A DNA stretch of 64,000 nucleotides from Halalkalibacter oceani (GTDB taxonomy: Bacteria > Bacillota > Bacilli > Bacillales > Bacillaceae_D), in NCBI RefSeq assembly GCF_023715605.1, contig NZ_JAMBOL010000014.1:1-64000 (forward strand), in the 5' to 3' direction. The notes beneath the pieces are model-generated. The model ran no database searches. It was not told where the DNA came from and was given only the letters and a program-made list of their open reading frames with translations. The translations under genes and the position numbers were made by a program. Shown here in pieces: positions 34,108-58,775 of the stretch. Numbering within the stretch: position 1 is the stretch's first letter; each line of letters opens with the position of its first letter.

Positions 34108-35559
34108 TTATTGACGAAAGTCCTCTTTTATCATCTTGGCCAAACTTTGCATGCCCTGGATAAGCTCCGACTCAGAAGGATAGGCATAAGACAGACGAAG
34201 ATGGCTGTCGTCAAATTTATCGTAGATCGTGCCCGGGTTAAGCAAGATTCCTTTCTGTAAGACGTGCTGAAATAATTTTCGCGCGGAGATCCCTTTTTGT
34301 AGCTGCAGCCAAATGTAAAAACCTCCGTCCGGAATGTTCCACGTGCAACAATCGGAAAAGGAGTGCTTCAGGATATCGAGCATTAAATCGCGGCGTCTCA
34401 GAAGGCTTGCTCGGAGACGTGCCAGATGGGCCTCATATTTTCCACTTCGTATCCATTGGTTGACGACAGCTTGAGAGAGCGAGCTTGAGCCGTAGTCGGT
34501 CTGCATCTTAATATCGGCCAACCGGTCAATCACCTGCTCAGGGCCAACGAGCCAGCCAATCCGCAAGCCCGGGCTTAATGCCTTCGACACACTTCCTAAA
34601 TAGAGAACGTTACCACCCCTGTCATCAGCCTTTAAGGGTGGTGGAGGGGCATTCTCGAACCAAAGATCGCCGTAGACGTCATCCTCGATAAGAGGCAGCG
34701 TTTCACGGTGGGCTATTTCGGTTAGCTGTTTGCGTCGTTCCTCTGACATGACCGCCCCTGTAGGATTATGGAAAGAAGGGATCGTATAAAGCAAGGCAGC
34801 GTCATGCTGGCGCTTCAGTTGGACGAGTCTTTCCATTTGCAGGCCTTGACTGTCGAGCGGGATGCCGACTCCGCGTATTCCGACCGATTCAAACATAGAA
34901 AGAGAATTAAGATAAGACGGCGCTTCGTGCAAGATAACGGAGCCCTTTCGTAAAAGACCCCAGGCAATTAATTGCAGTGCCTGAAGACCACCGGAAACGA
35001 TTAAAATCGATGACGGCGAGGCGTAGATTCCCTTATTCCGCAAATAACCGGATAGCGTTTCCCTCAATTGCATATTCCCTTTCGGCTCTTCATAGCCGAG
35101 GGAAAGCGGCTCGTGCTGAAGTGAGGTCAGTATCTGTTGCATGGCATCAGCGGGAATCAGCTCAGAGCCGAGTTCCCCGGTGCCAAGCCGCAAAATGGCG
35201 GGTTCCGCTTCGGCCTTATTGATTTGCTGGATCAGCGATTTGTTTGGCTGATGAATCCCGGCCTGGACGTATTCCGGCCAATTCGGTGATGAGGCGGCCA
35301 GGACATTCCACGTATTGTTGGCGACGATCGTCCTGCTGCCGGCTTTTGCTTCGAGCAGTCCCTCTGCGATAAGCTCCTGCAGGGCGGTGATGACAGTGCT
35401 TCTGTTCACCTCAAAGCTGGTTGCTAACTGCCGTTGGGAGGGGAGCTTTGTTCCGATCGTCCATTCCCCACTCATGATCTTATTTCGAATAAAATTGACA
35501 ATTTGCAAATACAAGGGGATTGAGGATGATTTCACAGGCTTCCAATTGATTTCTGACAA
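34108..35559 (-). CDS. MocR-type regulator divergent from a LysE exporter
   Basis: A 483-aa GntR/aminotransferase fusion, second of its kind in the window. The winged helix (about 15-75) has LPSQRQLATSFEVNRSTVIT and the PLP domain has NPTG, EDDVYGDLWF and the lysine motif LGSVSKALSPGLRIGW. The start is TTG at 35559, since AAGGAGGGAAACG lies immediately upstream; the frame also runs to an ATG at 35583 without such a site. It diverges from a LysE-family amino acid exporter, a common MocR arrangement, so it probably regulates that exporter in response to an amino acid or its PLP adduct. Confidence 0.92.
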   Translation of the reverse strand: MSEINWKPVKSSSIPLYLQIVNFIRNKIMSGEWTIGTKLPSQRQLATSFEVNRSTVITALQELIAEGLLEAKAGSRTIVANNTWNVLAASSPNWPEYVQAGIHQPNKSLIQQINKAEAEPAILRLGTGELGSELIPADAMQQILTSLQHEPLSLGYEEPKGNMQLRETLSGYLRNKGIYASPSSILIVSGGLQALQLIAWGLLRKGSVILHEAPSYLNSLSMFESVGIRGVGIPLDSQGLQMERLVQLKRQHDAALLYTIPSFHNPTGAVMSEERRKQLTEIAHRETLPLIEDDVYGDLWFENAPPPPLKADDRGGNVLYLGSVSKALSPGLRIGWLVGPEQVIDRLADIKMQTDYGSSSLSQAVVNQWIRSGKYEAHLARLRASLLRRRDLMLDILKHSFSDCCTWNIPDGGFYIWLQLQKGISARKLFQHVLQKGILLNPGTIYDKFDDSHLRLSYAYPSESELIQGMQSLAKMIKEDFRQ

Positions 35560-37552: not shown

Positions 37553-38626
37553 ATGAGTAAACAATCCATTTATGGATTAACCTTTGAACAATTGACGTCT
37601 TGGCTTTTGGAACATGGACATAAAAAATTTCGCGCTTCTCAAGTATGGGACTGGCTTTATCAAAAGCGGGTAACGACGTTTTTCGAGATGACGAATATTA
37701 ATAAAGAATGCCTGCAACTGCTGGAGGATCATTTTGAATTCCAGACGCTGACTGAGCATATAAAGCAGGAGTCGGCAGACGGGACGATTAAATTTCTCTT
37801 TAAGCTGAACGATGGCAATTTAATTGAGACAGTATTAATGCGTCAGAAATACGGCCTGTCCGTCTGTGTAACAACGCAGGTCGGCTGTAACATTGGCTGC
37901 AGCTTCTGCGCGAGCGGCCTGTTGACGAAGGATCGTGATCTGTCCAGTGGTGAAATTGTTGAGCAGATTATGAAAGTCCAGCTTTATTTGGATTCGGTTG
38001 GCAAGGGCGAACGGGTCAGTCACATTGTCATCATGGGAATCGGGGAACCATTTGATAATTTTGAGAACATGGTGGACTTCCTTGATATTATGAAGGATCA
38101 GAAGGGGCTGGCGATTGGCGCGAGACATATTACTGTTTCAACAAGTGGCCTTGTCAACAAAATTTATGAGTTTGCTGATTTGCAGTCACAGGTCAATTTG
38201 GCGATTTCCCTTCATGCACCGAATGACGAGCTGCGTACCCGGATTATGAAAATTAACCGTGCTTATCCGATTAAGAAGCTGATGGAAGCGATCGACTATT
38301 ATATCGAGAAGACAAATCGGCGTATAACGTTGGAGTATATTTTGCTGAAGGATGTTAATGATCATAAGGAGCATGCTCTTGAGCTTGCTGAGCTGATTGC
38401 TGATAAACGAAAGCTGGCGTACGTCAACTTAATTCCGTATAACCCGGTTAGTGAGCACAGTCAATATCAGCGAAGCACGAAGGAAGCGATCCGCACCTTC
38501 TATGATACATTGAAGAAAAAAGGAATTAACTGCGTCGTCCGGATGGAGCACGGCACTGATATTGATGCCGCCTGCGGTCAGCTTCGCAGTAAGCAAATGA
38601 AGAAAAAGCAAAAGCAGAAGGTTTAG
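37553..38626 (+). CDS. RlmN-like radical SAM 23S rRNA methyltransferase paralogue
   Basis: A 357-aa radical SAM enzyme of the RlmN/Cfr family, which methylates A2503 of 23S rRNA (RlmN also acts on tRNA). The cluster motif CNIGCSFC places C112, C116 and C119; MGIGEPFDN and DIDAACGQL with C341, the methyl-transfer cysteine, are present. After the cluster it reads [16 protein letters not shown], unlike the ASTLGGLKRNL of housekeeping Bacillus RlmN, so this is probably a second, diverged copy. It is not close to Cfr in its N-terminus ([14 protein letters not shown] is RlmN-like). ATG 37553 has AGAGGG upstream. Not linked to prpC/prkC as B. subtilis rlmN is. Confidence 0.88.
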
Positions 38627-38816: not shown

Positions 38817-39824
38817 TTATTGAATGCCTTCGTGGATTTCCTTCACCATTTCCGATACGGAGATTAATCCACCGCCGGATAGGTACCAAACACTTGGGTT
38901 CAGGAAGACAATGTTGTCATTTTGCGCAGCGTTTGTGCTGTCGATAATTTCATTGTTAATTAATGGATTTTCACTGCCTGCCTCATCAATCGCCTGATCA
39001 CGGTCGATCACGAAGAGGTAATCAGGATTTGTTTCGGCAATGTATTCGTACGAAACGCTCATTCCATGAGTTGATGCTTCAATGTTTTCATCAGCTGCCG
39101 GGATGCCGAATACGTCGTGAAGGATCCCGAATCTTGAGCCGTTTCCGTATGCGCTAATATTTCCACTTGTCGTCAAAACGATGAGTCCAGTTCCGTCCAG
39201 TTCAGCAACTTCTTCATTTAAAGCTGCAATCGCATCATTGATTTTTGTTAACTCTGCTTCTGCTTCTTCCTCTTTGTTGAAGATTTCTCCTAACAATTCA
39301 ACATTGTGGGTGAACGACTCCATGTAGTTCGTTGTATCGACTCCGACAAAAATGGTAGGAGCGATTTCACTTAATTCTTCATACGCTTCAGACTGTCTGC
39401 CGGAAATAATGATTAAATCCGGATTTAAACCATAAATTGTTTCGAAGTCAAGCTCTTTCAAGCTTCCGACATTCGTATATTCATCGCCCTCATACTTTGA
39501 TAAATAATCCGGCAGCGAGCTTCCTTTTGCGACACCTGCGACTTCGACTCCAAGTGTATCTAATGTCTCAAGAGCACCGTAATCAAAGACAACAACCGTT
39601 TCCGGTTCTTTCTGAACAACTGTTTCGCCAAGATCATGAGTAACGGTAATTTCAGCTGCTTCGGACTCTGCTTCCGCTCCGCTGCCGTCCTCTTCAGTCG
39701 CTTCCTCAGTTGTAGCCGGGCTTTCCTCTTCACCTGTATCTGCATCATTTGATGAGTCTGTTCCGCATGCGGCTAATGTAACAACCAGCACGAGAAGAAT
39801 AAGAAAGGATAAATATTTCTTCAT
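38817..39824 (-). CDS. YclQ-like (petrobactin-type) siderophore-binding lipoprotein
   Basis: A 335-aa ABC substrate-binding lipoprotein. The lipobox is LAAC (C20), then an acidic linker (about 25-58). The fold contains ITVTHDLGETVV, VVVFDYGALETLDTLG, LNPDLIIISGRQ and YGNGSRFGILHDVFG, the pattern of YclQ of B. subtilis, which binds petrobactin and related catecholates. No permease or ATPase gene is linked. AGGAGTGAGATAAC precedes the ATG. A near-perfect Fur box lies 115 bases upstream. Confidence 0.9.
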   Translation of the reverse strand: MKKYLSFLILLVLVVTLAACGTDSSNDADTGEEESPATTEEATEEDGSGAEAESEAAEITVTHDLGETVVQKEPETVVVFDYGALETLDTLGVEVAGVAKGSSLPDYLSKYEGDEYTNVGSLKELDFETIYGLNPDLIIISGRQSEAYEELSEIAPTIFVGVDTTNYMESFTHNVELLGEIFNKEEEAEAELTKINDAIAALNEEVAELDGTGLIVLTTSGNISAYGNGSRFGILHDVFGIPAADENIEASTHGMSVSYEYIAETNPDYLFVIDRDQAIDEAGSENPLINNEIIDSTNAAQNDNIVFLNPSVWYLSGGGLISVSEMVKEIHEGIQ

Positions 39825-39938
39825 GTTATCTCACTCCTAATCGTATAGTTTATCTATTTTTAAATTATGTAGCATAATTTAAAACCTGTCGCTATCCAAC
39901 AAATTTGCTGATTAAACAGAAAACAGCCATAAACAAAT

Positions 39939-39957
39939 GATAACAATTATCATTATC
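39939..39957. promoter_or_regulatory. Fur box
   Basis: On the minus strand GATAATGATAATTGTTATC matches the 19-bp Fur consensus at 17 positions. It precedes the YclQ-like gene, so iron repression is expected. Confidence 0.87.
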
Positions 39958-39999
39958 ATAAGTCAAGTAAGAATTTAAAAATAGTGCTTTATCATGCTG

Positions 40000-40028
40000 T
40001 TGACGCAGCCAGTTGATGGGCATATAAT
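40000..40028 (+). promoter_or_regulatory. SigA promoter of the BenE-like gene
   Basis: TTGACG (40000-40005) and TATAAT (40023-40028) with an ideal 17-base spacer, about 120 bases before the start codon. Confidence 0.75.
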
Positions 40029-40083
40029 TAACACAATTGTTTGAAAAGAATGCAAGCTGTCAACAAATATTTCGGTTTCCTAA

Positions 40084-40099
40084 TGTTTCATGTGAAACA
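40084..40099. other. parS: parS-like ParB (Spo0J) binding site
   Basis: TGTTTCATGTGAAACA differs from the bacterial chromosomal parS sequence TGTTTCACGTGAAACA at one central base. The arms are perfect (ATGTTTCA / TGAAACAT, 40083-40100). It lies in the leader of the BenE-like gene. parS sites nucleate ParB for origin segregation and normally cluster in the origin-proximal part of the chromosome. Confidence 0.8.
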
Positions 40100-40150
40100 T
40101 GATCATGGGAGTGAAAAGCCGAATTTTAGCAGCGTAGGGAAGGGTTTTTT

Positions 40151-41383
40151 ATGGCAGGATGGAATGTTTTTTTTGGACGGAAGAATAATACAAATCCATT
40201 TACAGATTTTAATGGAAAAAATATAACCGCGGGCTGTGTTTCCGGACTATTGGCCATTATCAGCGTGCCTGTCATTATTCTGCAGGCAGCTGAAAACGGT
40301 AGTTTTACAAATGAACAAACCATTTCATGGATGCTGGCGATGTATATTTTCGGCGGGCTATTCAGCGTTTTAGTACCACTTTATTACCGGATGCCGATTG
40401 TCGGAGCGAGTTCCATCACAGGGATCGCTTTTTTAGCTACAGTCACGGGGCAATTTTCTTATCACGAGCTTGTTGGAGCTTATGTGCTGACCGGATTATT
40501 AATGCTTATTGTCGGTTATTTCGGTTTTTTTAAAAAGTTGATTGAATATGTGCCGAAGGAAATTATCGCGGCGATGCTTGCCGGAATGATTATGAAATAT
40601 ATGACGAATTTCATTGTTTCGATTAGTCAGATGGCGTTGATCGGCATTCTTTCATTAGTAGTGTTTTTTGTTTTCAGCTATAAAAAAATGAGGGTACCTC
40701 CGTTGATTGCTGCTGTGGGGACGGCCTTTATTCTGTTGCTCGTAACTTATCCGCTTCATGTAAGCGGGGGCGCTTCGGCTTTTGTCGTTCCGGCTGTTCA
40801 GATGCCGTCTTTCAGCGTTTTAGGGTTTTTGTCAGTTGCGATCCCGCTGGCATTATTAATTTTAAGTAATGATGCTGCGGTCGGGATTGGAGCAATTGAG
40901 CAGAACGATTATCATCTGCCGGTTAATCAATTGGTTTCACTTGGTGGGATTTTTACAATTTGCGCCGGCTTCTTTGGCGGAATCAGTGCCAATGTCGCGG
41001 GAATGATGTCGGCGATTTGTGCTGATGAAGAAGCGGGGCCTTACGAGAAGAGGTATATTGGCGCTGTCATCTCTGGCTTGATTTTGATTACATTCGGTCT
41101 TCTGTCCTGGAAGCTCGTTCCGTTTATTCAAGCTTTGCCGGCTGATTTTGTCGCGATTTTAGTTGGGCTTTCACTGCTTGGTGTGTTCGGGAACAGCCTG
41201 CATATCAGCTTTTCAAAGCCAGAGCTGAAAATGAGCGCTGCTTTTGCGTTTATTATTGCCGCCTCCGGTATTACATTATTTAATATCAGTGCACCAGTCT
41301 GGTCATTGCTTGTTGGAACGTTCATTGCCCGCAAAATGGAAACGAAGCGAGGAAAGGCAGAACTGAGAAAGCAAACCGCGTAG
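40151..41383 (+). CDS. benE: BenE-family transporter (benzoate/H+ symporter family)
   Basis: A 410-aa integral membrane protein with about 11-12 hydrophobic helices. It matches the BenE family: VGASSITGIAFLATVTGQFS, VPKEIIAAMLAGM, LALLILSNDAAVGIGAIEQN and GGIFTICAGFFGGISANVAG correspond to its conserved segments. The fold is that of the nucleobase/ascorbate transporters. Substrate may be benzoate or another small organic acid; no aromatic catabolism genes are nearby. GGGAAGGG lies 7 bases before the ATG. Transcription should start from 40,035 or so, through the parS-like site. Confidence 0.87.
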   Translation: MAGWNVFFGRKNNTNPFTDFNGKNITAGCVSGLLAIISVPVIILQAAENGSFTNEQTISWMLAMYIFGGLFSVLVPLYYRMPIVGASSITGIAFLATVTGQFSYHELVGAYVLTGLLMLIVGYFGFFKKLIEYVPKEIIAAMLAGMIMKYMTNFIVSISQMALIGILSLVVFFVFSYKKMRVPPLIAAVGTAFILLLVTYPLHVSGGASAFVVPAVQMPSFSVLGFLSVAIPLALLILSNDAAVGIGAIEQNDYHLPVNQLVSLGGIFTICAGFFGGISANVAGMMSAICADEEAGPYEKRYIGAVISGLILITFGLLSWKLVPFIQALPADFVAILVGLSLLGVFGNSLHISFSKPELKMSAAFAFIIAASGITLFNISAPVWSLLVGTFIARKMETKRGKAELRKQTA

Positions 41384-48363: not shown

Positions 48364-49164
48364 TTATAATGTGCTAATGTGCTGAAAAAAGCTTTTCATA
48401 TGTGCTTTTAGTAAGCAAAGATCGCGGCTTAGCCAGCGGGCATGAAAGCCGACCGGATCAAGCGATGTCACCGCAAAGCGGCAATCTTGATCAATCGGAC
48501 AGGCTTCCTGCAGCTCGGCTGCGGATTCACCAAAGTCCGGGGAAAAGAACCAGGCGCTCCCGTAATAATAGTCATCGAGCATGCCGAGCTGGGGCGTAGC
48601 GTCCGGTTGGAAGCGGAGCCGGTCGTAGGCGATTTGCCGGCCTTCGTACGCAACCGACAGCTTTAAATCGAGTGACTCATACTGGAAGCTTTCGGCATGC
48701 TCCAGCCGACCAGGTGATAAAATTTCGGCAAAATAGCAGGTGGAGCTGGAATCAAGCGCGATCTCGATCGTTTGCACGAAACGCGAGCCGGCAAACGGGA
48801 TCGTCGTTTCCGGATGCCAGTAAAGGCTGCTCTCTTCGCTAATATCAAAGCTCAGACTTTGCTTGCTTACTTCTCCATCCAGCCGGGCCGGGTAAATCTT
48901 TGTGGATGACTGCTGGATCAGATGAACCTTGGCGGCGGCAGAGGCCGAGATCGTCATCCGGTTCTCGTCGCCGCTCGCGATCCCGCCCGATGTATCGACC
49001 AAATAAACAGTCGCAGCTCCATCATCATCCGGGTAAAGAGCGCGGCTCGCTTTCAGCGGCGGCAGCTGATAGCAGCTCATCATTCTCGTTTTGCCGCGAT
49101 GATGGGCGAAGCTGAGGTCAAGCCGGCCTTGCAGTGTCTGGAAGGCGGCAGCGGCGTGGCTCAT
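48364..49164 (-). CDS. ureD: Urease accessory protein UreD (UreH)
   Basis: A 266-aa chaperone that, with UreF and UreG, delivers nickel to apo-urease. [20 protein letters not shown] (split at 51-70) and [15 protein letters not shown] are the UreD signatures. Last gene of the operon. Its start overlaps the ureG stop by 4 bases, so it is translationally coupled. Length is typical. Confidence 0.95.
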
Positions 49165-49790
49165 GTATTAGCCGGCTCCTCGGCAAAGTCCTCCAGCAGC
49201 AGTTGCGATTGTATCCATTTGATGATCTCATCAATGCCAATATCCTTTTTTTGATTGGCAAATACGAAAGGACGCTCGCCTCTTGCCCGGCTCGTATCTG
49301 ATTTCATTAAGTCGAGGTCGACATCGACGTAAGGTGCCAGGTCGATTTTGTTAATGACAAGCAAGTCGGAACGAGTGACGCCAGGCCCGCCTTTGCGGGG
49401 AATATCCTGCCCTTCGGCGACGTCGATCACGTAAATAAAGCCGTCGACGAGCTCGGGACTGAATGTCGCTGAGAGATTATCGCCACCGCTCTCGACAAAA
49501 ATGATATCGAGGCTGGAAAAGCGTTGCTTTAATTCATGGATCGCCTCAAAATTCATCGAAGCATCTTCTCTAATAGCGGTATGCGGGCAGCCACCGGTTT
49601 CAACACCGATAATGCGGTCGGCTTCAAGTACTCCATGTGTCGTTAAAAACTGGGCATCCTCTTTCGTATAAATATCATTTGTAATGACGGCCAGCTCGTA
49701 TGTCTCATGCAGCTTGCGCGTCAATCGTTCGACCAACGATGTTTTCCCTGAGCCGACCGGACCGCCGATTCCAATTCGTACGGGCTTCAT
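49161..49790 (-). CDS. ureG: Urease accessory GTPase UreG
   Basis: A 209-aa SIMIBI-class GTPase that powers nickel insertion. P-loop GPVGSGKT (10-17), the metal-binding Cys-Pro-His of [13 protein letters not shown], and the switch [15 protein letters not shown] are intact, with NKIDLAPYV as the G4-type motif. AAGGAGATGAT precedes the ATG. It is separated from ureF by about 190 bases of dispersed hairpin repeats, unusual for this operon. Confidence 0.96.
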
Positions 49791-49807
49791 CCTATCATCT
49801 CCTTTTT

Positions 49808-49982
49808 GAAAAGCCGCCTGTGGCGCTTTTTATGATCAAAATTTTCGGGTTACTCGTGGAAGGGCGTCGGCTTCGCTCGTTACACGTCTATCTGAAAGAA
49901 CCCCACTTTCAGATAGACTTATAGAAATGGTAACGGCGCCGCCCGACGCTTCTAAGAAAAGTCGCCTGTGGCGCTTTTCTTA
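49808..49982. repeat. Composite dispersed repeat within the urease operon
   Basis: Fills the ureF-ureG gap. It contains a GAAAAGCCGCCTGTGGCGCT hairpin (49808-49832), the second copy of the 51-bp hairpin (49869-49919, a perfect 13-bp stem), and a second TAAGAAAAGTCGCC / GGCGCTTTTCTTA hairpin (49953-49982). The last three bases of the final hairpin form the ureF stop codon. Confidence 0.75.
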
Positions 49983-50666
49983 GGAAATAAATAAGCGTGA
50001 GAATAAAAATTCATGCTCCATTGAGGCGAGTTCAATTCCGATTGCCTGGTTGGAGACATCGTCAAGCGTGCGGGCCAATACTTGGGTCGTGACCTGTTCA
50101 CAGTCGGGCAAAATTGCGTGGATCGCCTGAACGCCGGTTGTTTGCCCAAGTGGGACGGCACGGACAGCATTATGGATCAGGTTGGCGACCGAGGAATAAA
50201 GAAAGCTGCAAATCGTTACCGCTAACGGCATTCCTTCGGTATATGCATAGAGCGTATAAGAGAGCGCATGGTGCCCATGGGTTCGTTTTTCTTTGATGTC
50301 CTCTCTCCATTGTGGAAGCAGTGGAGAAGAGGAGAGGGGGCAGACCGTTTCAAGAAACTGACGCCCCATTTTGGTGCTGCCGATCCGTGATTCCTTTGCC
50401 AGCTTTTGTGCGTGACAGAACGAATCTAGCTCGTAAAGAGTCGTCAGACCTGGGACTGCGGCAAGGCTTTGCCAAGCTTCCTTCACAAAGATCGCGTCGC
50501 CTGTGCCGAGATTGCCGTGAAGGTAGCTGCGGCAATACGTGAGCAGCGTCTCTTTGTCGTGGATCTTTCCTTGCTGAATATAGGTTTCCATCCCAAAGGA
50601 ATGGGTGTATGAACCGATCGGAAAAGCGGAATCATGAATGTGCATGAGCTGCAGAAGCTGATTCAT
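49980..50666 (-). CDS. ureF: Urease accessory protein UreF
   Basis: A 228-aa nickel-delivery chaperone and GTPase-activating partner of UreG. Begins [20 protein letters not shown], then [13 protein letters not shown], the diagnostic UreF N-terminus. The open frame extends upstream to 50738 but the family start is the ATG at 50666, within the end of ureE (35-base overlap). Its TAA lies in a dispersed hairpin, so the C-terminal end (FSRLFIS) may have been set by repeat insertion. Confidence 0.93.
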
Positions 50667-51114
50667 CTGGATCGTGATGGTGGTGTCCTTTGTATTTGAA
50701 AGGCTCGTTAAATCGTTTCTCTGCTTCGACATAGGCAACCCCCGTTTCGCGAAAGATCACTTCAAGTGTCTGGTCGTAGCGGACGATAATCTCATCGTCT
50801 TCGATAATACAAGGGGTGTGGCGGTTGCCAAGCTCAAAGGCGACCTTTCCCATCTCGGTAAGCGTGGCAGGCTTAATGACGTAAGCCGGCTCAAGCTTCG
50901 TCCGGATGGCGATCGTTGAAGTATCGTTATGGAAAAGCACGTCGCCATAGCGCAAGCCCTGCTCATCGAGGACGATCGCCACCTCGCGGCCAGTTGTTGT
51001 CGTTTTGCGCAGGATTCGCTTGTTCAGTTCCTCCCAATCGAGCTCAATCCATTCGACCTTCTCTTTGTCATGCTGCATATCTTCAAGGTTGCCAATCACT
51101 TTTGTCATTCGCAT
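50632..51114 (-). CDS. ureE: Urease accessory nickel metallochaperone UreE
   Basis: A 160-aa nickel carrier. The N-terminal peptide-binding domain and the C-terminal metal-binding domain ([19 protein letters not shown]) are clear, and the tail is histidine rich (HHHHDPDES ... AHAHS), as in nickel-storing UreE. GAGGAGG lies upstream of the ATG. It lies 23 bases after ureC and overlaps ureF. Confidence 0.95.
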
Positions 51115-51137
51115 CGTTGCTCGCCTCCTCGATAAAA

Positions 51138-52853
51138 TTAAAATAAGAAATAACGCTGAGCCATCGCCACTGTTTCAAACGGCTCGCATGTGACTAGTTT
51201 GCCATCAACCTTAACCTCATACGTTTCCGGATTGACCTCAATATCCGGCGTCGCGTCGTTCAGCTTCATGTCCGCTTTTGCCAGGTTACGGCAGCCATGG
51301 GCGACGGCAATCTTCTTTTGCAGCCCAAGCTGTTTATGGACACCTTGGTCGTAGGCCGCTTGTGACAGGAACGTCAGGCTTGTCGCCTGGACGGCTTTGC
51401 CGAAGCTGGCGAACATCGGCCGCTGCATCACCGGCTGCGGCGTCGGAATCGAAGCGTTCGGATCTCCCATCTGGGCGTGGGCAATCATTCCGCCTTTAAG
51501 CGTCAGTTCAGGTTTGACCCCAAAGAAGCGCGGGTCCCACAGGACAAGGTCGGCGAGCTTTCCGACTTCAATAGAGCCAACCTCATGGGCAATGCCGTGC
51601 GTAATCGCCGGATTGATCGTGTATTTCGCGATATAGCGCTTAATGCGGAAATTATCATGGTCATAAGGGGCATCCTCTTCAAGCGGCCCGAACTGTTTTT
51701 TCATCTTATCGGCCGTCTGCCATGTTCTCAGAACAACTTCGCCGACTCTGCCCATCGCCTGGGAGTCGGAGGAAATCATGCTAATAATCCCAAGATCGTG
51801 AAACACATCCTCGGCTGCGATCGTTTCCGGCCGAATCCGCGAATCGGCAAAAGCGACATCTTCTGGCACACGAGGATCAAGATGATGACAGACCATCAGC
51901 ATATCGAGATGTTCATCGATCGTGTTGATCGTAAATGGCCGCGTTGGATTCGTTGAGGACGGCAGAATATTGGCCAGGCCGGCAATTTTAATAATATCGG
52001 GGGCATGTCCGCCACCGGCTCCTTCGGTATGATACGTATGAATTACCCGATCGCCGATTGCCGCCACGGTTTCCTCCAAGAAGCCGGCTTCATTTAATGT
52101 ATCGGTATGGATGGCGACCTGTACGTCCATCTCATCAGCAACATCGAGACAGGTGCGGATCGTCGCCGGGGTCGTCCCCCAATCCTCATGAAGCTTCAGG
52201 CCGATTGCTCCGGCTGCAATCTGTTCGCGCAACGGAGCGTGGCTGGCGCTGTTGCCCTTGCCGAGAAAGCCGATGTTAACCGGGAAGGCTTCGGCAGCTT
52301 CTAGCATCCGGTGAATATTCCAGCTTCCGGGTGTGCAGGTCGTTGCCTTCGTGCCGGTAGCTGGACCTGTTCCGCCGCCGAGCATCGTTGTTACCCCGGA
52401 GGAAATCGCCGTCTCGATTTGCTGCGGGCTGATGAAATGGATATGAGCGTCAATTCCGCCAGCTGTGACGATCAAGCCTTCCGCGGCAATCGCTTCGGTG
52501 CTGGCGCCGACGATCATATTGTCAGCGACGCCATCCATCACAGTCGGGTTTCCGCCTTTGCCGATGCCGACGATCCGTCCATCTTTAATTCCGATATCCG
52601 CTTTAATAATTCCGGTATAGTCGACGATGGTCGCGTTTGTAATAATCAGATCAAGCACGCCGTCATCGCGAGAATGGATGCCGCTTTGCCCCATCCCATC
52701 GCGCAGCACTTTGCCGCCGCCGAATTTGCATTCATCGCCATAAACGGTAAAGTCCTGCTCGATTTCAAGCCAAAGCTCCGTATCGGCGAGCCTGACTTTG
52801 TCACCGGTCGTCGGGCCGTACAGGCTTGCATATTGTGGACGTGTCAGTTTCAA
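51138..52853 (-). CDS. ureC: Urease alpha subunit
   Basis: The 571-aa catalytic subunit that hydrolyses urea to ammonia and carbamate. Nickel ligands are H137 and H139 (DAHIHF), the carbamylated lysine K220 (GLKLHEDWG), H249, H275 ([10 protein letters not shown]) and D363 (SSDSQAMGR). The mobile flap has C322 and H323 (MVCHHLD). All are intact, so the enzyme should be active. Start overlaps ureB by 4 bases. Confidence 0.98.
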
Positions 52854-53221
52854 GTTGTTTCGCCTCCTTGCCGGGCAAATGCGTCAATCTTTTTCAAAAA
52901 AGCCGTTTCTTCTGTTGCGAGACTTCCTTCTGTTAATTGGTTTAAGCCATAAATTTCCTTTAAACCGCCGAACTCAACGAGCTCAATGATTTTTTCCTCG
53001 CCCGGCTCAAAGCGAACGGCCGTACCCGCGGCAATGTCAAGACGCATGCCATAAGCGGCTTTGCGATCAAAGACGAGCTCGCGATTAACCTCGGCAAAGT
53101 GATAGTGGGAGCCGATTTGAACGGGTCGGTCTCCACTATTGGCGACGCGTATCGAGATTGTTTTTCTTCCTTCATTTAATTCAATCGAACCTTTCGCAGT
53201 CCGAATTTCTCCTGGTATCAA
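52850..53221 (-). CDS. ureB: Urease beta subunit
   Basis: A small structural subunit of urease, 123 aa. Starts at TTG 53221 (reading [18 protein letters not shown]), with GGGAGGG just upstream, the position homologues use. The frame also runs to a TTG at 53254 without a better site. [14 protein letters not shown] and [18 protein letters not shown] are family signatures. Its stop overlaps the ureC start. Confidence 0.95.
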
Positions 53222-53310
53222 GGCAATCCCTCCCATTGTATGAGCTTTAGACAAAAGGGTAGGCTTTTTCCCTTTGCTCTTCCTCTTAACGTCAACTTCT
53301 GTCCCAGCCG

Positions 53311-53613
53311 CTATTGTATAGGGTCATGAATCGTTACAAGCTTTGTTCCATCCGGGAAGGTAGCCTCGACCTGGATGTGATCCAGCATTTCCGGAATTCC
53401 TTCCATAACATCATCGGCGGTCAGCACATGCTTTCCTTCTTTCATTAACGTAGCAACCGATTTCCCTTCTCTTGCTCCTTCAAGAATAAAGCAGCTAAGG
53501 ATAGCGGCAGCTTCGGGGTAGTTTAGCTTCAGTCCTTTTTCCTTGCGCTGTTTTGCCAGCTCACCTGCCATAAATAGAAACAGTTTTTCTTTTTCGATTG
53601 GGTTAAGAATCAT
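53311..53613 (-). CDS. ureA: Urease gamma subunit
   Basis: A 100-aa structural subunit, first gene of the operon. Sequence [40 protein letters not shown] and [12 protein letters not shown] fit UreA at full length. GAGGTGAAA lies upstream of the ATG. The ~90-base gap to ureB has no obvious terminator. Confidence 0.96.
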
Positions 53614-53711
53614 GTATGTTTCACCTCACATCTCATGTAAGCTTTTGCTGCTGAATATTCCAAAAGTCATATATGAACTGTAACTTGTAAAAAAAGCGGC
53701 TGCAATAATGT

Positions 53712-53728
53712 TGTTAAATAATCTGACA
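53712..53728. promoter_or_regulatory. TnrA/GlnR box between urease and urea transporter operons
   Basis: TGTTAAATAATCTGACA fits the 17-bp consensus TGTNANAWWWTNTNACA at every defined position. It lies about 100 bases upstream of ureA and 158 upstream of urtA, so it can control both divergent operons by nitrogen status. A partial second site, TGTGAGAAAATGT, lies at about 53780-53792. Confidence 0.87.
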
Positions 53729-53885
53729 TGGAAGTTGGATAGTAAAAATGACATACAGTTGTTAGATATTCAGCCATTTTGTGAGAAAATGTTCTGTCAG
53801 CTTTCCTGACATAAATGCTGTACTTGAGTTAGAAACTTGGTATTATCGGAATTGTTCGAAAAAGATAATAACTGGGAGGTCAAAC

Positions 53886-55169
53886 ATGTTACGGAAAAAG
53901 AAGTGGTTAGCTGGAGTGGTAGGACTGACAATGCTTGCCTTAACGGCTTGTGGCGGAGGAAGTGATGAGCCGACGACAGGAACTGAGGGCGGCACGGCTT
54001 CGGAGGCAGAACCCGGAGAAGAGGTTGAAATTGATGAAAGTGAACAAATTGCTGTAGGAATCCTTCATTCTTTAAGCGGAACAATGGCGATGAGTGAAAC
54101 GTCCGTAAGGGATGCCGAGCTGTTGGCCATCGAGGAAATTAACGAAGCTGGCGGCGTATTGGGAAAAGAAATCGTCCCGATCATTGAAGATGGTGCCTCA
54201 GAGCCTAATATTTTCTCTGAACGCGCGACGAAGCTGTTGCAGCAGGACGGGGTCGATGTCATCTTTGGCGGATGGACGTCAGCGAGCCGAAAAGCGATGC
54301 TGCCGGTAGTCGAGGACAACAACGGACTGCTTTTCTATCCGGTTCAATATGAAGGTATGGAAGCTTCTCCGAATATTTTTTATGCAGGAGCAGCACCGAA
54401 TCAGCAAATTGTGCCGGCGGTTGACTGGCTGCTTGAGAATGAAGGGACAGAGTTCTTCCTATTAGGCTCTGACTATGTGTTCCCGCGTCTGGCGAACCAG
54501 ATCATTAAAGCGCAGCTTGAAGAAAATGGTGCAACATTAGTTGACGAGCAGTACACGCCGCTTGGTCATACTGATTATAATACAATTATTTCCAGGATCC
54601 GTGAGTCTCAGCCGCAAGTTATCTTCAACACATTAAATGGCGACAGTAATGTAGCTTTCTTTAAACAGCTGTCAGATGCCGGAATTACAGCCGATGATGT
54701 GACGATTCTTTCTGTCAGTGTAGCCGAAGAAGAAATTCGCGGTATTGGAGCTGACGTTCTGGAAGGTCATTATGCAAGCTGGAATTATTATCAAACTACG
54801 GACACACCGGAAAATGAAACATTTGTTGCGAAGTATAAGGAAGCATACGGTGAGGATCGAGTGACGGGCGATCCGATCGAAGCAGGATATTTCATGGTTC
54901 ATTTATGGGCCCAGGCTGTAGAAGCAGCAGGAACGACTGACGTTGACGCAGTTCGGGAAGCGGCAGCCGGCATTGAGTTTAATGCGCCTGGCGGACCTGT
55001 TGTTGTCGATGGCGATAATCAGCATGTTTATAAAACGGTGCGGATTGGTCAAATCGGAGCAGATGGTCAATTTACGGAAGTATGGAATTCCGGAGAGCCG
55101 GTTAAACCAGATCCTTATTTAGAAGGGTATGACTGGGCGAGTGAAATCAGCAGCACATTAGCTCAATAG
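53886..55169 (+). CDS. urtA: Urea ABC transporter substrate-binding lipoprotein UrtA
   Basis: A 427-aa extracellular lipoprotein with lipobox LTAC (C22) and an acidic linker. It belongs to the type 1 amide-binding (Leu/Ile/Val) family: [49 protein letters not shown] and [11 protein letters not shown] are UrtA signatures. ATG 53886 follows GGGAGG; the upstream in-frame region to 53781 is leader. First gene of urtABCDE, divergent from urease. Shares the TnrA/GlnR box. Confidence 0.96.
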
Positions 55170-55188
55170 CAAATACATCATGGAGGCA

Positions 55189-55234
55189 ATGCGGCAGCTG
55201 CTGCCAGTTCAAAGGAGGCAGCAGCTGCCTGCAT
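55189..55234 (+). promoter_or_regulatory. Stable hairpin between urtA and urtB
   Basis: GCGGCAGCTGCTGCC (55191-55205) pairs with GGCAGCAGCTGCCTGC (55217-55232) around an 11-base loop. There is no T-run, so rather than a full terminator it probably protects the urtA message 3' end or attenuates, giving excess UrtA over permease. Confidence 0.7.
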
Positions 55235-55274
55235 ATGCTGATTCTGATTGAGGAAAAAAAGGATGTGATTCACG

Positions 55275-56177
55275 GTGGAAGCACTACTTATCCAGGCGTT
55301 TAATGGGATCAGTTTAGGATCGATTTTGTTGCTGATCGCCCTCGGTTTGGCAATAACATTTGGATTAATGAAAGTAATCAATATGGCACATGGGGAACTG
55401 ATTATGATTGGCGCTTATACGACCTATGTGGTCCAGTCGATCTTTACGCAATACGTCCCTGCGCATTTATTCGATCTTTATTTCGTGTTGGCTATTCCCA
55501 TCGCTTTTATTGTTGCAGCATTAATCGGAATGTTATTAGAATATACGATCATTCGTCATCTCTATGGCCGACCGCTTGACAGTTTACTGGCGACATTTGG
55601 TGTTGGTCTCATTCTTCAGCAAACAGCCCGTTCTATTTTTGGAGCGCCGAACGTCGGTGTCGAGGCGCCGTCGTTTCTTAGAGGCGGAGTGGAGATCATG
55701 TCTGTGACATTGCCAGTTTCACGACTTTTTATTATTGCGCTCGTTCTCGTCTGTTTTGCGATTCTATCGTTTTATCTTTATAAAATGAACAATGGTCGAA
55801 AGATACGGGCGGTCATGCAAAACCGGCAAATGGCGATGTGTGTCGGGATTTCGACGCGGCGCGTGGATGCGACGACCTTTGCGATCGGCGCCGGTATCGC
55901 CGGGATTGCCGGTGCGGCTTTAACGTTAATTGGGCCGATCGGGCCGACGATCGGTACGTACTATATTGTCGATGCCTTTATGGTCGTTGTCGTCGGCGGT
56001 GTCGGGATGCTGCTCGGAACGGTCGCCGGTGCAATGGGGATCGGCGTCTTCAATACAGTATTTGAATACTGGACCAATGCTTCAATGGGAAAGGTGCTTA
56101 TTTTCGCCTTAATTGTCCTGTTCCTGCAATGGCGTCCATCGGGAATGTTTTCATTGCGCACCCGTTCCCTCGATTAA
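55275..56177 (+). CDS. urtB: Urea ABC transporter permease UrtB
   Basis: A 300-aa LivH-type permease with about eight hydrophobic helices. Begins MEALLIQAFNGISLGSILLL, with MKVINMAHGELIMIGAY and IGPTIGTYYIVDAFMVVVVG typical of UrtB. Starts with GTG after AAAGGA at a longer than usual spacing. It forms the transmembrane channel with UrtC. Confidence 0.94.
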   Translation: MEALLIQAFNGISLGSILLLIALGLAITFGLMKVINMAHGELIMIGAYTTYVVQSIFTQYVPAHLFDLYFVLAIPIAFIVAALIGMLLEYTIIRHLYGRPLDSLLATFGVGLILQQTARSIFGAPNVGVEAPSFLRGGVEIMSVTLPVSRLFIIALVLVCFAILSFYLYKMNNGRKIRAVMQNRQMAMCVGISTRRVDATTFAIGAGIAGIAGAALTLIGPIGPTIGTYYIVDAFMVVVVGGVGMLLGTVAGAMGIGVFNTVFEYWTNASMGKVLIFALIVLFLQWRPSGMFSLRTRSLD

Positions 56178-56262
56178 ACAGGAGGATACGGGCCGGTGCC
56201 TGCTGAGGATATGGAGGCTTACGACCTATCAGCAGGATTGATAGAAGGGAGAACAACATATT

Positions 56263-57354
56263 ATGAAGCTATCAATTGCCAATTATTTGATCAGCCGAAA
56301 GTGGCTGTTTCTGATCTTGACGATTATTTTAATCATACTGCCATTTTTTCTGTCAGACTTTCGTGTCAACCTGTTAGGCCGCTATTTGGCATTTGCGATT
56401 CTTGTCATTGGACTTGATTTATTATGGGGCTATATGGGGGTACTCAGTCTCGGACACGGGATTTTCTTCGGACTCGGAGCCTATATTATGGCGATCTATT
56501 TGACGATGGAATCATCAAACGGTGTACCTGACTTTATGATGTGGAACGGCATTACCGAGCTTCCCTGGTTCTGGGCAGTGCTGCAAAATCCGGCTGTCGC
56601 GATTCTCGCCGCTATTTTTGTTCCAATGATACTGGCGACAATCCTTGGATTCTTTACATTCCGCAATCGGATTCAGGACGTCTATTTTACCATTTTGACA
56701 CAGGCTCTTGTGATGGTTACCGTGACGCTGATTATTAGTCAGCAGGATGTAACAGGCGGAACAAACGGGTTAACAGGTTTCTCGACGATATTTGGCTATT
56801 CACTGTCCAACCCGGCGACGCAAAAAGCGCTCTATTATATAACGCTTGCCTGCCTGGTTATCGTTTTTCTCATCTGCACCCGTCTCGTAAACAGCCGCTT
56901 TGGGAAGGCGTTAATCGCTATTCGCGACGGGGAGAATCGCCTGCGTTTCTCCGGTTATGATACGTCGATGTTCAAAGTGCTTGTGTTCTCCATCTCGGCT
57001 GGAATTGCCGGTTTGGCCGGCATGCTGTTTGTTACGCAAGTCGGCATCATTTCGCCGACGATGATCGGCATTATCCCGTCGATTGAAATGATTTTATGGG
57101 TGGCGATCGGTGGACGGGGCACGCTTGTCGGCCCGGTTATTGGAGCGGTTTTAACAAACAGTGCCAAGACGTTTTTCAGTGAGTCGTATCCCGATATTTG
57201 GCTTTATTTTCTTGGTGCCGTGTTTGTGATTGTCGTCATTTTCTTACCTGGAGGCCTGATGAGCCTGCTGGACAAATTAAAAAGGAGAGGAAATGCAAAT
57301 GAAAAACGAACAGTCAACAAAGAAAGCAAAGAAGCGGACTATCCTGCAAGCTGA
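56263..57354 (+). CDS. urtC: Urea ABC transporter permease UrtC
   Basis: A 363-aa LivM-type permease with about ten helices. LGLDLLWGYMGVLSLGHGIF (split at 47-66), GGTNGLTGF and WVAIGGRGTLVGPVIGA are conserved UrtC motifs. GGGAGA lies upstream. Its last 20 codons overlap the start of urtD by 62 bases. Confidence 0.94.
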   Translation: MKLSIANYLISRKWLFLILTIILIILPFFLSDFRVNLLGRYLAFAILVIGLDLLWGYMGVLSLGHGIFFGLGAYIMAIYLTMESSNGVPDFMMWNGITELPWFWAVLQNPAVAILAAIFVPMILATILGFFTFRNRIQDVYFTILTQALVMVTVTLIISQQDVTGGTNGLTGFSTIFGYSLSNPATQKALYYITLACLVIVFLICTRLVNSRFGKALIAIRDGENRLRFSGYDTSMFKVLVFSISAGIAGLAGMLFVTQVGIISPTMIGIIPSIEMILWVAIGGRGTLVGPVIGAVLTNSAKTFFSESYPDIWLYFLGAVFVIVVIFLPGGLMSLLDKLKRRGNANEKRTVNKESKEADYPAS

Positions 57355-58105
57355 ACATACATCGGTTGCCTTTGGTGGATTTTATGCGATTAACGATTTT
57401 TCGATTGAAATCATGGAAGGGGAGCTTCACTTCCTAATCGGGCCGAATGGCGCCGGTAAAACAACCTTTCTTGACGTCGTCTGTGGAAAAACAAAGCAAA
57501 GTCAGGGGACGCTGATGTTTAAAGAAAAGCATGACCTGACAAAGTTGAAGGAATTTGAAATTGTCCGCGAAGGGATCGGCCGCAAATTTCAAGCTCCCTC
57601 CGTGTTTCCGAATTTAACTGTCTGGGAAAATCTTGAGCTTTCGATGAAGCAGGATAAGCGGCTATTTAGCATTTTAAAGGCGAAGTCAACAAAGGAAGAG
57701 AGGGCGCAAATTACGGAAATGCTCGAGCTGATTGGGTTGCTTCCTCATAAAGACGAAATGGCGAGGCTGCTTTCCCACGGCCAGAAGCAATGGCTGGAAA
57801 TCGGGATGGTGATGATGCAGAAGCCCGATCTTCTGATGCTCGATGAACCGATTGCCGGCATGACGGAGGAGGAGGAAGAGAAGACAGGCGAATTGCTGCT
57901 GAAATTAAAGGAGCAGTGCGCGATCATCGTCGTCGAGCATGATATGGAGTTTGTCCGCAAGTATTCAGAAAAGGTGACGGTGATGCATGAAGGGCAGCTG
58001 CTTTGCGACGGGCCGATGGAAATCGTCCAGGCAAATGAGCGCGTAATGGAAGTATATCTTGGACGTAAGGGTGAGGCGAAGGATGTTGCAACTACAACAG
58101 CTTGA
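57293..58105 (+). CDS. urtD: Urea ABC transporter ATPase UrtD
   Basis: A 270-aa ABC ATPase of the LivG type. Walker A GPNGAGKTT (50-58), signature LLSHGQKQWLEIG, and Walker B LLMLDEPIAGM are intact. AGGAGAGG lies just upstream of the ATG. The start lies within urtC and the end overlaps urtE by 23 bases, so translation is coupled. Confidence 0.95.
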   Translation: MQMKNEQSTKKAKKRTILQAEHTSVAFGGFYAINDFSIEIMEGELHFLIGPNGAGKTTFLDVVCGKTKQSQGTLMFKEKHDLTKLKEFEIVREGIGRKFQAPSVFPNLTVWENLELSMKQDKRLFSILKAKSTKEERAQITEMLELIGLLPHKDEMARLLSHGQKQWLEIGMVMMQKPDLLMLDEPIAGMTEEEEEKTGELLLKLKEQCAIIVVEHDMEFVRKYSEKVTVMHEGQLLCDGPMEIVQANERVMEVYLGRKGEAKDVATTTA

Positions 58106-58775
58106 AGTAGCTTATGATGATAGTATCGTCATTCGTGATGTATCGCTTGAAATCAAACAGGGCCAGGTCGTTTGTCTGATGGGACGAAACGGCGTTGGCA
58201 AAACGACGATTATCAAAACGATTATGGGCGTTTTGGCGAATCGAAAAGGAACGATCACGTATAAAGGGGAGGATGTTACGAGTAAAAATCCGACCTATCG
58301 GGCGAAAAAAGGCTTCGGCTTTGTTCCGCAGGGCAGAGAAATTTTCTCCAATCTGACGGTTTATGAAAACATGCTATTAGGGCTTGAGGCGAGAAGCGAC
58401 AAGAAGCGGACGATTGATGAAACGATCTATCAGTATTTTCCTGTATTAAAGGAAATGAAGGACCGCCCCGGCGGTGACCTGAGCGGCGGGCAGCAGCAGC
58501 AGCTTGCGTTTGCCAGAGCGCTTGTGTCCGAGCCTGAACTGCTGTTGCTTGATGAGCCGACCGAAGGAATCCAGCCGAATATCGTCGAGGATATTCAAAA
58601 AGTTATCAAGGACATTAAGGAAAACCAAAAGGAAACATCAATCTTGCTCGTTGAGCAAAGCTTCGATTTCGCCAAAAGTGTCGCCGATTACTTCTATATC
58701 GTCGACAAAGGAAGAATCGTCTATGAAGGCGAGGAGCTAATTGAAGAAGAGGTCAGCCGGCTGCTCAGTGTATAA
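58083..58775 (+). CDS. urtE: Urea ABC transporter ATPase UrtE
   Basis: A 230-aa LivF-type ABC ATPase. Walker A GRNGVGKTT (34-42), signature LSGGQQQQLA, Walker B LLLLDEPTEGIQPN. The ATG at 58083, preceded by GGGTGAGGCGAAGG, starts the conserved MLQLQQLEVAYDD; the upstream GTG at 58059 is rejected. Last gene of the operon, followed by a terminator. Confidence 0.95.
   Translation: MLQLQQLEVAYDDSIVIRDVSLEIKQGQVVCLMGRNGVGKTTIIKTIMGVLANRKGTITYKGEDVTSKNPTYRAKKGFGFVPQGREIFSNLTVYENMLLGLEARSDKKRTIDETIYQYFPVLKEMKDRPGGDLSGGQQQQLAFARALVSEPELLLLDEPTEGIQPNIVEDIQKVIKDIKENQKETSILLVEQSFDFAKSVADYFYIVDKGRIVYEGEELIEEEVSRLLSV

Follow-up and report, generated by a model that had tools for sequence, protein, structure and literature searches.

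The 16-mer TGTTTCATGTGAAACA at positions 40,084 to 40,099 is very probably a chromosomal parS site of the Soj/Spo0J (ParABS) system, placed on the left arm of the chromosome, some 74 kb or more from dnaA; we put the probability of this sequence-based reading at roughly 0.8. The window analyzed here is a stretch of 64,000 nucleotides, the first 64 kb of a 117.6-kb contig (C30) in a 4.47-Mb genome assembled into 124 contigs. The 16-mer differs from the parS consensus, TGTTTCACGTGAAACA, by a single C-to-T change at position 8 (the T8 variant), as an earlier note on this DNA had recognized in describing a site one central base off canonical parS. The same note credited the site with perfect 8-bp arms; the 16-mer proper has perfect arms of 7 bp around a TG center, and a length of 8 bp requires inclusion of the adjoining A (40083) and T (40100). 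The available text of PMC4333373 gives TGTTTCACGTGAAACA as the optimal sequence. We found two parS matches with three or fewer mismatches in the 64-kb window versus 0.31 expected, and two or more such matches arose in 3 of 100 shuffled windows. We found no mention of the exact T8 16-mer in the open-licence PMC literature. Coordinates are collected in Table 1; the labels rlmN, BenE, periplasmic binding protein, ParB, and Noc are backed by family searches, and yaaC, guaB, GNAT, L,D-transpeptidase, MocR, SDR, topB, mqo, urease, and urt were read from translations.

Table 1. Candidate parS sites and neighboring features (window positions unless a contig is named)
Feature	Position	Strand	Basis or remark
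Possible weaker second parS-like site TGTTCCACGTGCAACA, 2 mismatches	34335..34350	+	Inside MocR-type regulator gene
rlmN, conserved origin-proximal anchor	37553..38626	+	Pfam RlmN_N, Radical_SAM; 1.5 kb before the site
Predicted sigma-A-type promoter TTGACG-17-TATAAT	40000..40028	+	11/12 bases, consensus match only
37-bp run holding the site, identical in source genome and H. oceani	40067..40103	+	Alignment
parS-like site TGTTTCATGTGAAACA (T8 variant)	40084..40099	+	Consensus match; recurs in H. oceani
BenE-family transporter gene	40151..41383	+	Pfam BenE, 233.5 bits
Perfect 16-mer	C42:26761		7 kb from dnaA
TGTTTCACGTGGAACA	C42:23957		10 kb from dnaA; inside ParB-family gene
Mirror form of the T8 variant	C62:19399 (L052:19399-19414)		Inside yaaC-type gene beside guaB

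The parS interpretation of the earlier note holds up in the light of a genome-wide excess of sites, an origin-proximal location, and recurrence in H. oceani. Searching the whole genome, as the note had proposed, yielded three further sites with at most one mismatch, making four versus 0.07 expected under a first-order Markov model trained on three contigs. Sites with at most two mismatches number seven versus 1.6 expected, and a reversed control pattern gave no match at two or fewer mismatches in the same search. Because the latter total is only 7 versus 1.6, the clear excess is confined to the class with at most one mismatch, and the three sites with exactly two mismatches (C30:34335, C52, and C69) may have arisen by chance. 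The first of these, TGTTCCACGTGCAACA, is kept in H. oceani, yet the surrounding codons are all kept too; a weak parS and a chance match are both conceivable readings. All four sites with at most one mismatch fall in origin-region segments (C42, C62, and C30). Contig C42 carries dnaA (start at C42:33976) along with the ParB-family and Noc genes, and C62 matches the complete congener G006 at +15.6 to +26 kb in 9 of 18 ORFs, with the yaaC-type/guaB locus of its site corresponding to +16 kb. The earlier note had counted other origin-proximal perfect parS sites, together with a window far from the origin and no ParB at this site, as evidence against its reading. One of these points is half borne out, in that a perfect parS near dnaA does exist; since multiple parS sites are normal, it is no argument against the site at 40084.

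The window itself, which the earlier note had judged to be probably origin-proximal, maps to the left of dnaA when read via relatives across a contig gap. As dnaA is on a different contig from the site, the order in which C42 and C30 join was inferred from G006, and the minimum distance of about 74 kb is composed of 34 kb on C42 and 40 kb on C30, plus an unsequenced gap. Among the 13 genus genomes searched, rlmN lies 57 to 103 kb left of dnaA in all eight in which the two share a contig, and topB, which here is on the same contig as the window, lies 77 to 144 kb from dnaA in all seven that were readable. The G006 counterparts are at -80 kb (rlmN) and -102 kb (topB). We compared C30 with G006 over 303 kb left of the origin, 26 kb right of it, and a 20-kb stretch around benE: 22 of 102 ORFs matched, 21 of them within the left-of-origin stretch at -58 to -172 kb, versus 0 of 101 control ORFs from a same-sized stretch of contig C69. 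The same locus is carried in H. oceani by a 319-kb contig (C80), for which 86 of 278 ORFs matched G006 in an order broadly that of its left arm, from about -93 to -214 kb. GC skew is positive in 11 of the 12 10-kb blocks of C30 (-0.001 in the remaining block), as expected if the plus strand runs away from the origin. Half-parS heptamers showed no enrichment on C30 over C69. Judged by these shared genes and anchors, the site is origin-proximal and on the left arm. At 70 to 100 kb from the origin it would be unremarkable, since, according to the available text of PMC8357415, B. subtilis has eight parS sites spread over about 0.75 Mb, with that at -304 kb relatively strong, and a weak site at +1058 kb.

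Gene order near the site is not identical to that of G006. One difference is an SDR-type gene, 55.6% identical and possibly paralogous, which precedes rlmN here and comes after it in G006. Another concerns the urease and urt genes (window 49161-58775), which are near benE both here and in H. oceani and at -162 to -172 kb in G006; their placement is a left-arm rearrangement common to the source genome and H. oceani. We also considered mqo as a position anchor and gave it little weight, as it is near rlmN only in some genomes (the source genome, G008, G003 with one of two copies, G006, G007, and G012) and lies at a greater distance or on a separate contig in G001, G002, G004, G005, G009, G010, and G011.

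Genes for the corresponding machinery are present. The ParB/Spo0J domain model TIGR00180 scores 214 bits (cut-off 58) in the ParB-family gene, whose top-scoring model is Noc, below the Noc cut-off; the neighboring Noc gene scores 382 (cut-off 315). The ParA-type neighbor matches ParA-family models, all below their cut-offs among the 25 of 31 matches listed. In established ParABS systems, parS-bound Spo0J forms a closed CTP clamp, which travels over several kilobases and loads SMC. By analogy, the 16-mer would be recognized by the Spo0J (ParB) that the dnaA contig encodes; the protein would then form a CTP-closed sliding clamp, move out onto neighboring DNA including benE, and recruit SMC, and in this way would serve origin segregation and arm alignment. 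That the site falls in the leader of benE is most likely coincidental. As in the B. subtilis Soj/Spo0J system, the candidate is a 16-bp palindrome near TGTTTCACGTGAAACA and one of several sites scattered around oriC, but it has T at position 8 and sits in a transporter leader. A related palindrome is bound by the ParB paralogue Noc, also encoded here; we rejected a Noc-binding site (NBS) identity, since NBS-type bases are absent and the sole departure from parS is at position 8. In the available text of PMC7383237, NBS and parS differ by two bases, at positions 1 and 6, and, with the numbering as we interpret it, the change in the 16-mer falls at neither.

To place the site in its genus, we surveyed 13 Halalkalibacter genomes, all of which contain parS-like sites with at most one mismatch. 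In 11 of the 13, the source genome included, such a site falls in the zone between rlmN and topB, at several addresses, with rlmN and topB being on different contigs in two of the genomes (G009 and G012). The zones of G005 and G010 hold no site with at most one mismatch, so a distal left-arm site is dispensable. One address, some 80 to 340 bp upstream of topB, recurs in G001, G002, G003, G004, G006, G007, G009, and G012; a second is beside a GNAT gene in G001, G003, G004, and G006 and beside the neighbor of that gene in G002, G009, and G012. The zone site of G011 is inside an ABC-transporter-like gene (a label read from the translation). The source genome and H. oceani carry the benE-leader site and are without both other common zone sites: the topB parS is absent from each, and the GNAT gene has no match at E 0.001 in either. 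A degenerate remnant of the topB parS was also sought in these two genomes, and nothing under 6 mismatches was found in 600 bp. Orthologues of benE with 56 to 62% identity occupy other locations, such as 1.05 Mb in G006 or a point about 361 kb from dnaA in G007, and the copy in G004 is interrupted by a stop. In 330 bp upstream of four diverged orthologues (G004, G006, G007, and G012), there is nothing nearer to the site than 5 mismatches. These diverged benE genes without the site, together with the occupancy of the zone, indicate that the site goes with the chromosomal zone and not with the transporter gene. A wider proposal, which we regard as doubtful, is that most Halalkalibacter species retain, within one fixed zone, a distal left-arm site for ParB/SMC loading whose exact address changes over time; the benE-leader site would then be the replacement here, with clamps also meeting benE transcription.

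The T8 form recurs within the genus and beyond it. All 13 genus genomes have, in a yaaC-type gene, a parS-like site exactly one mismatch from consensus (seven CAC-ATG, five CAT-GTG, and CAC-GTA in G001). T8 or its mirror is the form in 12 of the 13, and this one orthologous site accounts for 12 of the 16 copies of T8 in the genus. In the five CAT-GTG genomes, a single synonymous change in this gene would give a perfect parS, yet the site is imperfect. In a codon alignment of the gene that left out G005, G010, and G011 (read separately), all 10 aligned sequences agree at the two other informative codons, a test of low power given that 13 of the 93 two-fold columns are invariant in any case. At the left-arm junction of the GNAT and L,D-transpeptidase genes, T8 occurs in G004, the perfect 16-mer in G003 and G006, and a different one-base parS variant in G001; G002 and G009 have T8 plus a change of the first base beside the same GNAT gene. 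A further T8 copy is inside an unrelated gene on contig C14 of G007, at an unmapped position. Across 41 family genomes, the base at position 8, when not C, is T in 34 copies, A in 3, and G in 0, the 34 including 18 copies from outside the genus that enter as a bare count. Mutation of C to T in CpG is common; T8 is a CpG-to-TpG change, and the excess of T over A and G may be partly mutational. From the GNAT junction and the position-8 counts, the T8 form is credible as a parS. A doubly changed center, TGTTTCATATGAAACA, is seen in another genus of the family (G013:C21:151510 and G017:C1:3751879), about 123 to 130 kb from perfect parS copies among the matches listed. Likewise among the matches listed, T8 appears a second time in G024, 68 kb away from the perfect site of that genome.

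At the benE locus, the site falls between a predicted promoter and the ATG, in agreement with the earlier note, which had assigned it to the 5' leader of a BenE-like gene. Its start is 56 nt past the -10 box and its end 51 nt ahead of the benE start codon, and it would therefore lie inside the predicted transcribed leader. Both promoter hexamers are identical in H. oceani, and promoter-like matches in the region number 9 versus 6.3 in shuffles. The BenE-family gene scores 180 bits against NCBIfam TIGR00843, below the cut-off of 203.4. In H. oceani the same 16-mer is found 50 nt from benE versus 51 nt here; conservation at this locus rests on a single relative, as our entries L010 and G008 are both H. 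oceani P106. The spacer between the periplasmic binding protein (SBP) gene and benE is 84.8% identical to that of H. oceani over 328 columns; at 85% background identity, an unchanged 16-base stretch would be expected in about 7% of cases. The identical run that holds the site is longer than parS, which alone does not explain it, and two runs are longer still: one of 41 bp with a Fur-box-like sequence and one of 45 bp upstream of the SBP gene.

This long run, together with the location in the predicted leader, led us to weigh whether the palindrome is a benE-specific element, either the operator of a regulator or part of a leader-RNA hairpin, which we consider unlikely. For a 60-nt leader RNA of the source genome, few shuffles fold as well (z -2.68, 3 of 200), but H. 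oceani gives a different fold (z -1.43, 19 of 200). The 42-nt folds of both species (z -1.38 and -1.99) have in common an outer five-pair stem, UCCUA/UGGGA, around the palindrome, but their inner pairing differs, and the shared stem, compared in two sequences only, is without sequence change and hence without covariation evidence. The 130-nt leader fold is unremarkable (z -0.48), and no Rfam family exceeds its cut-off in 39800-40300. A leader-RNA role is thus weakly supported. An operator is difficult to reconcile with the four diverged benE orthologues that have no 16-mer upstream, and either version with the presence of the same 16-mer at unrelated loci, which in the genus are mostly near the origin where mapped.

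Alternatively, the sequence could be a parS retained for regulation of benE by ParB clamps, through a roadblock or silencing, and not for segregation. Such a role would suit a site between promoter and start codon, and it has a precedent in the intergenic parS3 and parS4 of P. aeruginosa, which resemble our candidate in standing upstream of a gene and at which, according to the available text of PMC7022226, ParB represses two genes downstream. The same text states that loss of Spo0J in B. subtilis leaves genes adjoining parS unchanged, and the other zone sites of the genus adjoin unrelated genes, and we judge regulation of this kind very unlikely. A chance match without function would fit the one mismatch and the occurrence at benE in a single relative only. 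However, about 0.004 copies of the variant, in either orientation, are expected genome-wide under the Markov model and two are present, both in origin-region segments, and occupancy of the rlmN-topB zone in 11 of 13 genomes is also hard to square with chance, which we therefore regard as extremely unlikely.

Read as a parS, the site at 40084 would be newly found and otherwise ordinary: it adds one well-placed parS and by itself does not change the understanding of ParABS. The genus series, in which 11 of 13 genomes have a zone parS at differing addresses and in differing one-base forms, is natural material that could serve to ask how strongly ParB and SMC loading depend on sequence and position. 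A separate observation concerns the divergent side of the spacer. Upstream of the Peripla_BP_2 lipoprotein gene (38817-39824, minus strand), for which the best NCBIfam model is SstD, below its cut-off, the sequence TGATAACAATTATCA at 39938-39952, which we take to be close to the Fur box consensus, lies inside the 41-bp run identical with H. oceani.
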